This document shows positions 98-31,648 of a stretch of DNA of 32,115 bases, piece after piece. Source of the stretch: Candidatus Poseidoniales archaeon. Lineage in GTDB: Archaea; Thermoplasmatota; Poseidoniia; Poseidoniales; Poseidoniaceae. How positions within the stretch are numbered: position 1 is the first letter of the stretch; every line of letters begins with the position of its first letter. The notes under the pieces were generated by a model. That model did no database searches and had not been told where the DNA came from. It was given only the letters and a program-made list of their open reading frames with translations. The position numbers and the translations under genes were made by a program. The stretch is taken from NCBI GenBank assembly GCA_003602475.1, contig QQSC01000006.1:1-32115 (forward strand), given 5' to 3'.

Positions 98-481
98 TCA
101 AGATACATCTTCATTGGAGGCGACCGTCTCGGCTTCGGGGATCATCATTGATTGCTTGAGTGGACGGTCATCCTCGTCCTCATCGAACGAAAAATCTGTA
201 CTTCCCCCAGTCCATTGGGTTAAGGCATCTGATTCTTCAAAAGATTCATCCGGTGCAGTCGAGGAAGGGCCAAGTGAATACATGCTGGGTTCAATGGCTC
301 GTTGAGCTGCTGCTTCTCGTTCTTCAGGAGACGGTGGTGTGCGTTCTTCCAATACATGACCAGCATGAAATGTACCGCATTCGGGACATCTTAATGCGCC
401 TTTGAGTGAAAGGCAACCGCACACCGGGCAACTCGCCATCCCGTGGAAGGCGTTGAGAGGATCGGGTACGTCTTCTGTCAT
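98..481 (-). CDS. Small zinc-ribbon protein with acidic disordered tail
   Basis: A 127-residue protein of unknown function. Near the N-terminus two Cys pairs, CPVC (about residues 18-21) and CPEC (about 33-36), form a short zinc ribbon. The remainder is low complexity and acidic, including a run of Asp/Glu around residues 98-108, with no predicted membrane segment. Its start lies one base after the stop of the upstream EF-hand gene, so the two are almost certainly cotranscribed. The ribbon spacing resembles the two ribbons at the N-terminus of that neighbour, which suggests a shared partner or a duplication. Met15, directly before the first Cys pair, is an alternative start. The function is not recognised. 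Confidence 0.75.
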   Translation of the reverse strand: MTEDVPDPLNAFHGMASCPVCGCLSLKGALRCPECGTFHAGHVLEERTPPSPEEREAAAQRAIEPSMYSLGPSSTAPDESFEESDALTQWTGGSTDFSFDEDEDDRPLKQSMMIPEAETVASNEDVS

Positions 482-482
482 T

Positions 483-2237
483 TCACTCTACGAACATATC
501 GTCCTGATACCCAGTGATGATGTCACCGGAATCATCTTCCTCTATGGTGACCGTTCCCTCTTCATCATCAAATTCAACAATAACGCCGAACACTTCCTCG
601 CCATCAAATTCCAATCCTATGTGGGATCCAATGTCAATTTCTCCGTCGTCAGACTCTTCCGCGTCATCGTCTTCTTGGGTATCGTCTTCTGCACCTTCGT
701 CATCAGGATCGATGTCTTCCAAAACATCCTCTTCATCATCAGTCGTTGAATCTTCAATTTCTACGAGTTCCTTTTCATCCGAACCATCTGCATCAGAAGA
801 TGCAGCATCAGCTTTGTCTGTGTCGAAATCCTTCATGGCTCTGGCCCGAGCTCTCCAAGCCGGTACGCGTACGAAGTGCATGAACAACGACCAACCTAAG
901 CCAACCATGCTGAACACCATGAAAAGAATACCATCAAGGTAGAATCCTTTTGGCATTGAGGATGAATCTCCTGAGAACGGGGTGAGGGAGTTGGAACATC
1001 CACCGTTTTGGTAACTCTCGTCGCAAGCATAAATCTCGCCAGCTTCTACACCGGCCTTTATCAGACCGTTATCCATTGGCTCGTAGGCCACCATTCCACC
1101 TGTTCCATCAACTGGGCCAACCAGAGCATTGACCAGCAAGAGAATGAAAAACAGGACAAAACCAGTGTGGAGAATGGGCCAGACCGCATCGTTCCATTGT
1201 TTTGACATCATGCGTTTTTGCATCGGTGTTGGGAAATAATCAATTTCCTCATCTTCCTCAGCCTCGCCATCATCAATGGACTCAATGGATTCGTAAAATT
1301 CTGCAATGTCAATGCTTCCGTCTCCGTCATCATCAAAATTCGACATCAGTGCTTCAATGGCGACCATGTCAAGGTCTTCACCGTAATCACTTTCCAGCAA
1401 AGCGGTCAACTCATTCAAGGTGATCGAACCATCGCCGTCTTTGTCAAGGTCGTTAAACACACGTTGAGGAGAGACTCCTGAATCATCCATCATATCCACC
1501 AGATTGCGCAAAATATCCGAAGGACTCAGTGTCTCCTCGGTTTCCATTTCATCGTGGTCGTGATCTTCATCATCAAGTGATTCATGTGTAAATTCATGCT
1601 CATCTGAATTCGATTCTGCGTCGAATTCTTCCTCATGGGCTTCGTCGTTTTCGACCACTGCCTCATCGTCAATCGCAGATTCTGGTTCCGAATCTTCCTC
1701 AGTTGATTCATCCACTGATTGTTCATTCGCAGCATCACTGTCATCGTCTGAATGTTCCGGAGAGTGATGGTCATGTCCTTCATTCTCAGCGGTCAAAATT
1801 TGAATAAATTCATCCAGGTCAATAACCCCGTTGTCGTCTTCGTCAATTTCCATTACCAGCCGATCAACTTGTGCTGGAGGAAGGTCGGCGAGGTTTAAAC
1901 TCAACAATCCTGCTCGTAATTCCGAAGAGTCAATCATTCCATCGCCGTTTTCATCAAACTTGTCAAACAATTTTCTCAAATCAATACCTGTGTTGGAAAT
2001 CCATTGCCGCAAAACATCAACGACATCGTCAGCAACAAACAGCACCCCACAATCAGGACATCGGCTGGAATCCAGCGGGACGAGAGATTTGCATGCGCCA
2101 CACTCGCCCAACGCTTCATCCGAAACGCCTTGGAATGATGTATCACATTCTGGGCAAGTGGTCGAATCGATAGGAATCACGGCACGGCAGGAACCACATT
2201 CTGCCATTCCGACTTTGTTATCTTCATCCTTCGTCAT
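483..2237 (-). CDS. Membrane protein with two zinc ribbons and four EF-hand calcium-binding loops
   Basis: About 584 residues from the chosen start. Two CxxC...CPxC zinc ribbons come first (about 14-31 and 46-63). EF-hands follow in pairs: loops at about 95-106 and 132-143, then, after a long Asp/Glu/His-rich linker, at about 265-276 (DKDGDGSITLNE) and 302-313 (DDDGDGSIDIAE). All four loops keep Asp at position 1 and Glu at position 12. Two membrane segments (about 353-373 and 433-455) flank a loop with two Cys (C405, C414), possibly a disulfide. The C-terminus is highly acidic and ends in a short beta-rich stretch. The longer ORF (start 2360) would overlap the divergent gene. The ATG at 2237 sits about 9 bases past the TSS expected from a TATA-like box, which favours it. 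A calcium-sensing or calcium-buffering role is inferred; the family is not recognised. Confidence 0.85.
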   Translation of the reverse strand: MTKDEDNKVGMAECGSCRAVIPIDSTTCPECDTSFQGVSDEALGECGACKSLVPLDSSRCPDCGVLFVADDVVDVLRQWISNTGIDLRKLFDKFDENGDGMIDSSELRAGLLSLNLADLPPAQVDRLVMEIDEDDNGVIDLDEFIQILTAENEGHDHHSPEHSDDDSDAANEQSVDESTEEDSEPESAIDDEAVVENDEAHEEEFDAESNSDEHEFTHESLDDEDHDHDEMETEETLSPSDILRNLVDMMDDSGVSPQRVFNDLDKDGDGSITLNELTALLESDYGEDLDMVAIEALMSNFDDDGDGSIDIAEFYESIESIDDGEAEEDEEIDYFPTPMQKRMMSKQWNDAVWPILHTGFVLFFILLLVNALVGPVDGTGGMVAYEPMDNGLIKAGVEAGEIYACDESYQNGGCSNSLTPFSGDSSSMPKGFYLDGILFMVFSMVGLGWSLFMHFVRVPAWRARARAMKDFDTDKADAASSDADGSDEKELVEIEDSTTDDEEDVLEDIDPDDEGAEDDTQEDDDAEESDDGEIDIGSHIGLEFDGEEVFGVIVEFDDEEGTVTIEEDDSGDIITGYQDDMFVE

Positions 2238-2265: not shown

Positions 2266-2280
2266 GGGATATAATAATTC
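2266..2280. promoter_or_regulatory. TATA-like box shared by divergent EF-hand and DUF835-like genes
   Basis: The sequence GGGATATAATAATTC lies in the 121-base gap between the two divergent start codons. Read on the minus strand it is AATTATTATATCCC, centred about 36 bases before the ATG at 2237. With the usual archaeal spacing of about 27 bases, that implies a leader of only some 9 bases. On the plus strand the same A/T core could serve the DUF835-like gene with a leader of about 60 bases. No clear BRE was scored. Position and composition are the only evidence. Confidence 0.5.
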
Positions 2281-2345
2281 ACGAGCCCGATTGCTGAATG
2301 GGGTATTTCTTTAGACGGCTTCATCCACAACCGCACCATGGAGGG

Positions 2346-2352
2346 GGAGGTG
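2346..2352 (+). promoter_or_regulatory. Shine-Dalgarno site that decides the start of the DUF835-like gene
   Basis: GGAGGTG lies 6 bases before the ATG at 2359 and inside the longer ORF that begins at 2338. It is a near-perfect match to the anti-SD, so it favours translation from 2359 over 2338. Confidence 0.55.
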
Positions 2353-2358
2353 GTCGAC

Positions 2359-3219
2359 ATGCATTCCCTAAGAGGTTTGGATTACTCGGAGCGCATGAAC
2401 CTCTACGAACACCTCCATCAACGAGGTGGAGGTCAGCGCCTGATCATCAGCCGATCACCATTGCGGCGGTTGTTGAGACACCTCTCCCCCGTTGATTCCA
2501 CCTTTCGTTGGCTTACTGCGGTTGATCACCCAGATGCATTGCCGATTGACATTGATTCAATTGCTGAATGTGTCACACAGTGGACCGCCAACAACGATGG
2601 TGTGATCTTTCTCGAGGGTGTGAACGCTCTTTTTGACGCACAAGGCCCTGTCGCACTGTTTTCACTGATGGCCCACTTAAGTCGACTCTCATCCGGCACC
2701 AACATCTCCGTTTTTATCGTGCTTGACCCATTGACGTTCCCACCAAACGTCTGGACCCGAATTTCGCCCCTCGCTCCAGAATGGGTCAAATCTCAAGGCG
2801 AACATGAACAATCATTGGTGGGTGGCCAAACAAATCCCGAAGAACCGAATGAAGAGAGCATGCTGAGTCACATTCAAACAAGCGTGAATGAGGTTGTTCT
2901 GGCTCAGCTGGTATCGCTTCCTGAAAACGGATTTAATTCCAATCTCCTTTCAAAACGAATGCTACAGTGGCGCCGAATGGGCTTTGATCTAGCGGATTTG
3001 GAACCTGCCCTCACGATGGACAACATGCGGGATGCGTACGAGATCTACACCCGTGTGGAAGGAACCATTCGGGAAGCAACAGATGCGATGCTTGAACTCA
3101 CTCGCCATCCTGAGCGCTTTACGGTAACTCAGCTTGAGAGGTTTACGTACAGGCTTCTAAATCTGATCGATGTCAAATCAACGTCTAATGAAGTGTTTGC
3201 AGTTTCCCTAGCGGATTAA
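2359..3219 (+). CDS. DUF835-like protein
   Basis: 286 residues from the SD-supported ATG (293 if started at 2338). The segment at about residues 45-125 has the look of a DUF835 domain: an RWLT-like strand, then VIFLEGVNALF and VFIVLDPLTFP, matching the family's pattern of a 'LEG..yL' helix and a 'l.DP.tl' strand. DUF835 domains occur mostly in archaea, often beside sensor or HTH domains, and have no established biochemical role. The C-terminal 130 residues are mostly helical and unassigned. There is no membrane segment. The gene is divergent from the EF-hand operon and converges on hutH, overlapping its 3' end by 12 bases. The DUF835 assignment is by eye from motifs and is moderately sure. 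Confidence 0.75.
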   Translation: MHSLRGLDYSERMNLYEHLHQRGGGQRLIISRSPLRRLLRHLSPVDSTFRWLTAVDHPDALPIDIDSIAECVTQWTANNDGVIFLEGVNALFDAQGPVALFSLMAHLSRLSSGTNISVFIVLDPLTFPPNVWTRISPLAPEWVKSQGEHEQSLVGGQTNPEEPNEESMLSHIQTSVNEVVLAQLVSLPENGFNSNLLSKRMLQWRRMGFDLADLEPALTMDNMRDAYEIYTRVEGTIREATDAMLELTRHPERFTVTQLERFTYRLLNLIDVKSTSNEVFAVSLAD

Positions 3220-28765: not shown

Positions 28766-31648
28766 TCAACGAACCGAGAACACTTTTGATTTTACGATGA
28801 GCTTTCTGAATTCTTCGATGATGAAAACGCCGGACGCCACAAGAACCACAATCGCCCAGTCCGAAGCCGATATGCTGGTGGTCGACAACAAGGAACCCAC
28901 TTCGATACCAATGAGTGGCAAGTCATAGGTTGCCAAGTGGACAAAGAACACCAACAAACCACCTGAAATCAACAAGGCGTAATTGATGGCTTTGTTTGAA
29001 AACAGGCCCAATTCAAAGGCACTCTGCGTGTTTGATCGGCAATTGATGACATTGAACAATTGGAACACGATGAAGACAGCAAACGCCATGGTCTGAGCGT
29101 GCTCAAAATGTCCATCGGCGTACACTTCCCAATCCGAGATGGCAGCGGCGTCACCGTCCTCGCAAGCAGCAACGTTGAATGCGCTTGATGAAGAGTCGGA
29201 GGGGAGGACTTCACACTGCGCAAGGCCACCTCCAGCCAGATAGAACACAGCGAGGGTGCCGACCACCATCACCGTCCCAAGGTAGAACATCAATGAAATG
29301 TCCTTACCGTTGGGAAGACTTTCGTCCACCGGCCTCGGTGGCCGTTCCATCACGTTGCCGTGTTTCTTTTCAACACCCAATGCAACGGCTGGTGGGCCGT
29401 CCATAAGGATGTTAATAACAAGAATTTGTGTTGCTGTGAGAGGCAGTGGCCATTGAAAGACAAAGGTAGAAACAATGATCAACGCAACGGCCGCAACGTT
29501 GGTGGAAACTTGATAGCGAACGAAGTTACGAATGTTTTGGTAAATTTTCCGTCCCTCTTCAACCGCGTGAACGATGTTAGCGAAGTTGTCGTCTTGCAGG
29601 ACCATGTCTGAAGCATCTTTGGCAACATCTGTTCCTGCAATGCCCATGGCGATTCCGATGTTGGCACGAGAAAGAGCCGGTGCATCGTTGACACCGTCTC
29701 CGGTCATGGCCACAATTTCTCCTTTGGCTTGTAGAGCAGATACAATGTTCATTTTCTGATCGGGTGTGACACGAGAATAAATGGCCACGTCTTGGACAGA
29801 TTCTTCAAGTTCCGAAGCGTCCATGTTGGCCAAAGCATTTCCGTCAAGGGCAGGGGCGTTCCCAACATTGATGTTCAATTCCTTGCCAATGGCTGTGGCG
29901 GTCATCGCTTGGTCACCCGTGATCATTTTCACCTTGATCCCAGCTCGCTGACAAATTTCAATGGCATCGCGTACTTCTGGCCTTGGTGGGTCCATGATAC
30001 CTACCAAACCGAGGAAGGTGAGATCGTTTTCAACAACAGAAATGTCGGTGAAGTCAGCGTCCCCATCGAGTTTACGAGCAAACAAAGCAATGACTCGCAT
30101 GGCTTGTCCACCAAGTTCGTTGTTCATGGAGCGGATTTCGTCCATTTCGCCCTCCTCGATGGGAGCAACAACATTCCCCACTATTTTCTTGGTGCACAGT
30201 TCGGCATAGCCTCCCAAACTCCCTTTGGAGAAGATCCAACGTTCCCCTTCGTACTCGTGAACAACCGTCATTCTTTTTCTGTTTGAATCAAAGAAGAATT
30301 CGTGAAGTCGAGGATGACGGTGGGAGAATTTCTTGACGTCACCGTTGATTTTCCATCCAGCCACGGCGCAAGCAGAATCGGTCGGGTCGCCTATTGCTTG
30401 CCATTGTCCTTCCATTTTGGCGATGGTGGAGTTGTGACACAGAGCCAAGCAAGCACCAATAAGGCGATGTTTCAGATTTTGTTGTTGACCTTTGAGCACA
30501 TCATCGCTCAAAGGTTCTCCATTGACGGTCAACTCTCCATCCGGCTTGAATCCTTCACCAGTGAACCCAAACCGTTCTTCAAGGGTGACCAACGAACGCA
30601 CCGTCATTTGATTTTTCGTGAGGGTCCCGGTTTTATCCGAGCAAATGACGGTGGTTGAACCAAGGGTCTCAACAGCTTTCATCCTTCGAATAATGGCACG
30701 GTGTCGTGCCATGTTTCTCATTCCAAGCGAGAGAGTGATGACAAGAATGATGGGGAGGCCCTCGGGTACAATTGCGACAAAAATAGCAATGGCGATGATG
30801 AATTGTTCGATGGCCACTTCTTTCAAATCGGCATCTGTTCCATACGCAGATACCAATTTCAAGGAGACCAATAAAACGGCGACCACTAAGGCGATGAAAC
30901 CAAGGAAGCGACCAAGGCTTTCCAACTTCAGTTCTAACGGTGTTTTCGGCGTTTCTGCTTCTGCAATGTCCTTGGCGATTCGGCCAAGTTCGGTTTCCAT
31001 ACCTGTTCCGATGACCAATCCGAGCCCACGGCCGGAGGAGACAGTGGTCCCCATGAAGCCCATGTTCGTTCGGTCTGCGAGGAGGGTTTCCCTAGGACAC
31101 ACATCGTTCGATTTACGAACGGTTAACGATTCACCAGTAAGTGCCGATTCGTCAATTTTTAATTGCTGTGATTTGAGTATCCTCACGTCTGCAGGAATGT
31201 TTAATCCTGTTTCAAGACGGACAACATCTCCAGGAACCAATTCAACAGTTGGTATTTCGTTCTCAAAATCACCACGAATAACCACACAATTTGAAATCGA
31301 CATTTGCTTCAATGAATCCATCGCTTGTTCGGCTTGCCCCTCTTGCCAAAATCCGAAAAATGCATTGGCGGTCAGCACGAGGAAGATGAAGATGGCGTCA
31401 CCGGGGTGGTCAGGGTTCACGGCGAGGGCGATCAGGGCCGCCCCGATCAGCAAGTAATTCAGCGGATCGTTGTATTGGGACAAGAAACGCAACCATGCGG
31501 GGGTTTTTTCGGCTTCATCGAGTTTATTCTCACCATACTTTGTTCGGCGGACCTCGATTTCTGATGGGTTTAGGCCAACAACAGTGGAATTTTGTGAGGT
31601 GTAACATTCGTCCACCGTCATGCTGTGCCAATGTTGTTCCAAATCCAC
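28766..31648 (-). CDS. P2-type cation-transporting ATPase, PMCA-like (probable Ca2+ pump)
   Basis: 960 residues from a GTG start. An ATG at 31621 is possible, but HWHSMT before it matches the family N-terminus. Visible parts are the cation-ATPase N domain, TGES (171-174), PEGLP in M4 (295-299), the phosphorylation motif DKTGTLTKNQ (Asp338), the hinge TGDGVNDAPAL and about ten membrane segments. Compared with SERCA, the site-II ligands are kept: Glu in PEGLP, and Asn and Asp in NILMDG of M6. The M5 Glu of site I is Ala (TNVAAV versus SNVGEV), as in plasma-membrane Ca2+ pumps with one site. Calcium export is therefore likely; Mn2+ or Na+ cannot be excluded. It precedes mqnE on the same strand and is divergent from an OPT transporter gene. 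Confidence 0.93.
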   Translation of the reverse strand: MDLEQHWHSMTVDECYTSQNSTVVGLNPSEIEVRRTKYGENKLDEAEKTPAWLRFLSQYNDPLNYLLIGAALIALAVNPDHPGDAIFIFLVLTANAFFGFWQEGQAEQAMDSLKQMSISNCVVIRGDFENEIPTVELVPGDVVRLETGLNIPADVRILKSQQLKIDESALTGESLTVRKSNDVCPRETLLADRTNMGFMGTTVSSGRGLGLVIGTGMETELGRIAKDIAEAETPKTPLELKLESLGRFLGFIALVVAVLLVSLKLVSAYGTDADLKEVAIEQFIIAIAIFVAIVPEGLPIILVITLSLGMRNMARHRAIIRRMKAVETLGSTTVICSDKTGTLTKNQMTVRSLVTLEERFGFTGEGFKPDGELTVNGEPLSDDVLKGQQQNLKHRLIGACLALCHNSTIAKMEGQWQAIGDPTDSACAVAGWKINGDVKKFSHRHPRLHEFFFDSNRKRMTVVHEYEGERWIFSKGSLGGYAELCTKKIVGNVVAPIEEGEMDEIRSMNNELGGQAMRVIALFARKLDGDADFTDISVVENDLTFLGLVGIMDPPRPEVRDAIEICQRAGIKVKMITGDQAMTATAIGKELNINVGNAPALDGNALANMDASELEESVQDVAIYSRVTPDQKMNIVSALQAKGEIVAMTGDGVNDAPALSRANIGIAMGIAGTDVAKDASDMVLQDDNFANIVHAVEEGRKIYQNIRNFVRYQVSTNVAAVALIIVSTFVFQWPLPLTATQILVINILMDGPPAVALGVEKKHGNVMERPPRPVDESLPNGKDISLMFYLGTVMVVGTLAVFYLAGGGLAQCEVLPSDSSSSAFNVAACEDGDAAAISDWEVYADGHFEHAQTMAFAVFIVFQLFNVINCRSNTQSAFELGLFSNKAINYALLISGGLLVFFVHLATYDLPLIGIEVGSLLSTTSISASDWAIVVLVASGVFIIEEFRKLIVKSKVFSVR

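Follow-up and report, generated by a model that had tools for sequence, protein, structure and literature searches.

Does an archaeon signal via cytoplasmic calcium? EF-hand calcium signalling is regarded as chiefly a eukaryotic trait, bacteria providing a few scattered examples, and the Poseidoniales are among the most abundant surface-ocean archaea. An entry point to this question is offered by a co-inherited cassette around a membrane-anchored EF-hand protein (hereafter the EF protein), whose gene lies at 483..2237 (-) of the window, by which we mean the whole stretch of 32,115 nucleotides that was analysed (contig C50:1-32115 of a 1.95-Mb draft genome in 53 contigs). The host is a Poseidoniales (Marine Group II) archaeon, and named relatives of the gene come from Poseidonia and Ca. 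Poseidoniales MAGs. No tRNA or Rfam matches were found in the window. An initial annotation had placed this open reading frame of 584 aa correctly, along with the order of the domains that it named. The full order is zinc ribbon 1, zinc ribbon 2, EF pair 1, acidic spacer 1 and EF pair 2, followed by TM1, an external loop, TM2, RVPAWRARARAMK, acidic spacer 2 and a beta domain. The start at 2237 is supported by the homologues and by a conserved TATA box: a TATA-like element (ATTATA; 2270..2275, -) situated 33-38 nt 5' of this ATG is invariant across 14 aligned upstream regions, and a GGTGGA-like element just 5' of the ATG is common to them. A longer reading frame starting at 2360 was rejected; its upstream extension is not conserved and holds the TATA element.

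The component parts of the EF protein are of known kinds; neither their combination nor the cassette was found in the libraries and papers that we searched. The architecture fits no full-length model of Pfam or NCBIfam, in keeping with the doubt voiced earlier that it belongs to a named family, and literature searches on archaeal EF-hand and zinc-ribbon membrane proteins turned up no description of it. AlphaFold2 modelling of the EF protein at low coverage (three sequences, mean pLDDT 48) returned both EF pairs as helix-loop-helix units with short inter-loop strands, beta hairpins at both ribbons, and two long helices; we take this model as supportive only of the domain assignments.

EF-hand pair 1 (1788..2024, -) contains the loops DENGDGMIDSSE (aa 95) and DEDDNGVIDLDE (aa 132), and EF-hand pair 2 (1272..1523, -) contains DKDGDGSITLNE (aa 265) and DDDGDGSIDIAE (aa 302). 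All four loops fit the PROSITE-type EF-hand pattern with a 37-residue spacing within each pair, and Pfam EF-hand_7 (PF13499) matches the protein in two stretches (E = 1.3e-22, 80 bits). Since EF-like loops could arise by chance in an acidic protein, we conducted a sequence-shuffle test: 20,000 composition-preserving shuffles yielded a mean of 0.04 PROSITE-type matches, and 0 of 20,000 contained either four matches or a 37-residue pair. The protein displays the features of the canonical EF-hand superfamily, namely paired helix-loop-helix units with ligands at loop positions 1, 3, 5, 9 and 12. A loop-by-loop check of the homologues revealed that each loop of a present EF-hand has D at position 1, D/N/S at both 3 and 5, and E at 12; essentially all present EF-hands retain the first-position Asp and the position-12 Glu across homologues that are 28-64% identical overall. 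The initial annotation had described four canonical EF-hands that keep their calcium-ligand positions, had asked that the D and E positions be compared in relatives, and had named homologues losing the loop acids as one finding that would speak against it. Its description holds, and the objection fails because every present EF loop keeps its ligands. With near-total conservation of positions 1, 3, 5 and 12 wherever a loop exists, predicted calcium binding is well supported, and it is very likely that these EF-hands bind calcium.

Whole EF pairs, however, are dispensable. Orthologues of genus g5 (L052, L053) have no EF-hands; among g10 members, L042/L051 are missing EF pair 1, and in L050 and L049 EF pair 2 is entirely missing or at most one of its loops is left. 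The reading frames of these EF-depleted orthologues are open and situated at the same conserved locus. Since EF pairs are lost as whole units, the EF-hands are best seen as an accessory, the core being made up of the ribbons, the TM hairpin and the C-terminal domain, and the condition of g5 together with the single-pair losses in g10 indicates that the core job does not need calcium. The calcium sensing or buffering proposed at the outset is therefore upheld in part: ligand conservation supports predicted binding, but with EF pairs missing in orthologues of some genera this cannot be the sole function. In the g5 orthologues, we also observed a DVDGDG-type stretch after ribbon 2, DVDGDGELDLVS, which has no position-12 Glu and is possibly the relic of an EF loop.

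As judged from sequence conservation, the core shared across the order comprises the TM hairpin, the C-terminal domain and eight zinc cysteines. Columns without any variation in an alignment of 30 members are those of the eight zinc Cys, of a few residues in the ribbons, of one Asp in an EF-hand, of two residues in the TM helices and of Gly/Ile/Phe in the C-terminal domain. A single-sequence query matched the EF protein in 70 of 115 related genomes at 1e-8, some of the weakest matches being other EF-hand proteins, and a contig scan for the gene locus, which reaches close relatives only, returned two loci only, both from Poseidoniales. The two zinc ribbons recognised initially are present: their CxxC motifs start at aa 14, 28, 46 and 60, and all eight cysteines of ribbon 1 (C14, C17, C28, C31; 2145..2198, -; modelled as a beta hairpin) and ribbon 2 (C46, C49, C60, C63; 2049..2102, -) are invariant in 30 homologues. 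The double zinc ribbon model PF12773 is covered throughout (1-45 of 45; E = 2e-5) at 25.0 bits, below its curated cut-off of 27.3, and we therefore call these zinc ribbons and do not file the protein as a PF12773 member.

What had been described as an acidic tail is indeed present as acidic spacer 2 (aa 471-532, 53% D/E; 642..827, -), but it is followed by a conserved beta domain (aa 533-584; 486..641, -) that had been overlooked. This domain (~52 aa) is among the most conserved parts of the EF protein. Of the 293 genomes from the class, 128 have it, and the matches listed all fall in the two Poseidoniales families. Pfam matches are weak and mostly to SH3-barrel models (RimP-C SH3 for 16 of the 20 members, with E = 3e-4 at best; Myosin_N, LSM and Tudor for a few), and the isolated domain was modelled as all-beta with pLDDT 50. 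A PDB sequence search gave no significant match, nor did a Foldseek search of the PDB with this low-confidence model as the query (best E = 1.3). From the weak Pfam matches and the low-confidence all-beta model, the fold is probably SH3-like. A relative of the domain forms the N-terminus of a DUF3592 two-TM protein in several same-genus genomes (L094:3675-4739, L095:2968-3834), where the gene adjoins dUTPase and LipB-like genes; this protein was not found in the draft genome of the EF gene itself.

The EF pairs are separated by acidic spacer 1 (aa 151-238; 1524..1787, -), a segment of low pLDDT composed of 47% D/E with no K/R. Hydropathy and the AlphaFold2 helices place transmembrane helix 1 at aa 351-372 (1122..1187, -) and transmembrane helix 2 at aa 433-456 (870..941, -), the latter followed by the basic stretch already mentioned, and between them lies an acidic extracytoplasmic loop (942..1121, -) with Cys405 and Cys414, present in 28 and 25 of 30 homologues, respectively. 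The N-terminus is short and hydrophilic with no apparent signal peptide. Averaged over 30 homologues, there are ~3 K/R just before TM1 and ~5 just after TM2, and the 59-aa loop has few K/R and many D/E. Based on these positive-inside charges, the N-terminal Cys ribbons and the conserved loop Cys pair, the topology is likely N-in/C-in. The inner membrane face proposed initially as the site of action fits this predicted topology, with no signal peptide, positive flanks on the N- and C-terminal side and an external Cys pair.

The EF gene has two conserved neighbours. ZR127, a 127-aa zinc-ribbon protein with the conserved tail motif YSL..W.GGSTDF, is encoded at 98..481 (-), starting 1 nt after the EF gene stop, and is adjacent wherever the contig reaches. 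In the divergent direction lies a gene for a 293-aa protein (2338..3219, +) that matches PF05763 significantly, with E = 4.5e-5 and 23.7 bits, though under the cut-off of 33.1, and is therefore treated as DUF835-like. The gene order hutU-hutH / DUF835 <- -> EF gene -> ZR127 was seen at loci with enough flank in both Poseidoniales families of the genome collection (f1 and f2, which we infer to be Poseidoniaceae (MGIIa) and Thalassarchaeaceae (MGIIb), respectively), with identities of the neighbour proteins down to 23-40%. In the second family (47 genomes), the EF gene and full-length DUF835 were found together in 8 genomes, neither of them occurring in any other (naive Fisher p = 3e-9, phylogeny-uncorrected); ZR127 was found in 5 of these 8, and the contigs of the other 3 end in or at the EF gene. 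In PMC5847659, DUF835 appears among the output domains of response regulators in archaea, as an inactivated KaiC (iKaiC), making a signalling role the natural guess for the cassette. A link between cassette and motility was considered and rejected: in genus g17, G076 carries the cassette but gives no archaellin match, and g14 and g21 have archaellin-type matches without the cassette. The archaellum D/E family had zero matches in any of these genomes and hence no bearing on that link.

The EF protein appears to belong to an uncharacterised signalling unit that responds to calcium. We propose that the EF protein, the co-oriented ZR127 and the divergent DUF835 protein may act as one signalling cassette, in which the EF protein would serve as a membrane scaffold or sensor specific to Poseidoniales, its calmodulin-like lobes being an accessory that responds to calcium; this is the best reading, and we regard it as evenly balanced between right and wrong. 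Its cytoplasmic N- and C-termini would be linked by the TM hairpin with its Cys-paired external loop, and the two zinc ribbons and the probably SH3-like C-terminal domain would provide constant interaction surfaces. Upon a rise in cytoplasmic Ca2+, calcium would be bound by the two EF pairs on their flexible acidic spacers, and the loaded pairs would change the choice of partners docking at the membrane; such Ca2+-dependent switching and partner binding are plausible. The same window encodes a P-type ATPase (28766-31648, -) whose best NCBIfam scores are to PMR1- and SERCA-type calcium pumps, below the equivalog cut-offs; we take it to be a P2A-type Ca2+-ATPase, which makes low cytoplasmic Ca2+ plausible.

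A protein with four EF-hands and Asp/Glu spacers could instead serve as a calcium store or buffer on the inner side of the membrane, with no partner being switched, and the 47-53% D/E of the spacers, along with their retention in orthologues without EF-hands, would suit such a role. A buffer, however, needs no zinc ribbons, TM hairpin or C-terminal domain, yet those are more constant than the EF-hands, and signalling-type neighbours in a fixed cassette also argue against this idea, which we consider quite unlikely. Alternatively, the loops might hold Ca2+ or Mg2+ at all times and do no more than rigidify a constitutive membrane adaptor that works via its zinc ribbons and C-terminal domain, as would agree with the ability of whole EF pairs to go while the rest of the protein stays. 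Against such structural EF-hands, which we judge unlikely, stand the full canonical calmodulin-type ligand sets. The EF pair and zinc ribbon 2 also turn up together in an unrelated beta-propeller membrane protein, at the end predicted to be cytoplasmic, which suggests a portable regulatory module.

There is very little chance, in our estimate, that the EF gene regulates the histidine-utilisation genes beside it. At those examined loci whose flank is long enough, hutH and hutU do lie next to the EF gene, but the DUF835-like gene intervenes in opposite orientation, forming a convergent pair with hutH and a divergent one with the EF gene. Moreover, urocanase was found in 38 of the 47 second-family genomes versus 8 for the cassette, with no significant association (p = 0.16, phylogeny-uncorrected counts), indicating no tie between the cassette and histidine use. 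DUF835, the EF gene and ZR127 are gained or lost together, independently of these neighbours.

The preferred reading, a calcium-responsive membrane scaffold or sensor, has to be seen in a lineage rich in EF-hands. The statement that EF-hands in such number are unusual in archaea is right for the phylum, where only 4 genomes outside the class had an EF-hand pair match (sample of 390), but EF-hands are common in Poseidoniales, with typically 7-9 pairs per genome in the first family and 1-12 in the second; the unusual part is therefore the architecture of the EF protein and its cassette. Other carriers of EF pairs in the same genome are an amino-acid permease, NuoL, a 660-aa polytopic protein, a ZnuA-like binding protein, a zinc-ribbon protein and a small stand-alone protein. 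The permease belongs to the APC family and has its EF-hand pair at the C-terminus (G000:C48, L066:4338-6029, -), and the ZnuA-like metal-binding protein combines a pair with long His/Asp-rich inserts (G000:C16, L070:3078-5750, +). In NuoL of complex I (G000:C3, L067:3553-6120, +) the pair is inserted in a loop at about aa 465-530; this insert is spanned in most same-genus genomes at 70-89% identity and in one second-family g19 genome at 51%, and in the other genera sampled the flanking segments match without it, being directly adjacent in, e.g., G039. A broader picture, which we find doubtful, would be a home-grown cytoplasmic calcium signalling of Poseidoniales, with EF pairs grafted onto many membrane proteins (the EF scaffold, the propeller-type receptor, the amino-acid permease and the complex I subunit NuoL) and the DUF835 / zinc-ribbon-EF / ZR127 cassette as a membrane hub.

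Subgroup-specific protein families with calcium-binding domains have been reported in the two Poseidoniales families, with signalling suggested (PMC9258230); the accessible part of that paper differs from the present case in that it names no architecture and mentions neither zinc ribbons nor a TM hairpin nor a cassette of genes. The DUF3592 membrane protein (L094-L096) resembles the EF protein in having a ~50-aa beta domain on a two-TM protein (E = 5e-10 to 4e-8), but its beta domain is N-terminal and it has no zinc ribbon or EF-hand. STIM, to whose EF model the EF protein has a weak match, offers an analogy only, that of membrane-anchored EF-hand sensing: STIM senses lumenal calcium by an EF-SAM unit, whereas the EF pairs here are predicted to be cytoplasmic, and no SAM domain match was found in the EF protein. 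Another similarity is to a Poseidoniales beta-propeller-type membrane protein (L061-L065; G051, G105, G083, G037), an exported protein with one TM segment whose predicted cytoplasmic ribbon and EF tail resembles aa 45-144 of the EF protein. Ribbon 2 and EF pair 1 align with this tail as a unit (45-46% identity over ~100 aa) and find their nearest counterpart in it, but there the module is a C-terminal tail after the exported propeller-type region and TM segment, without the first ribbon, the second EF pair and the C-terminal domain. With calmodulin and other EF-hand pair proteins (PF13499), the EF protein shares two canonical pairs, 12-residue D1/E12 loops and short strands between the paired loops, and its identity to the human calmodulin N-lobe is about 34-36%. 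Calmodulins are soluble, with two EF pairs, a short linker and no other domains, and the EF protein falls outside that group: its pairs are an 88-aa acidic spacer apart, and the same chain also carries the zinc ribbons, the TM hairpin and the C-terminal beta domain.
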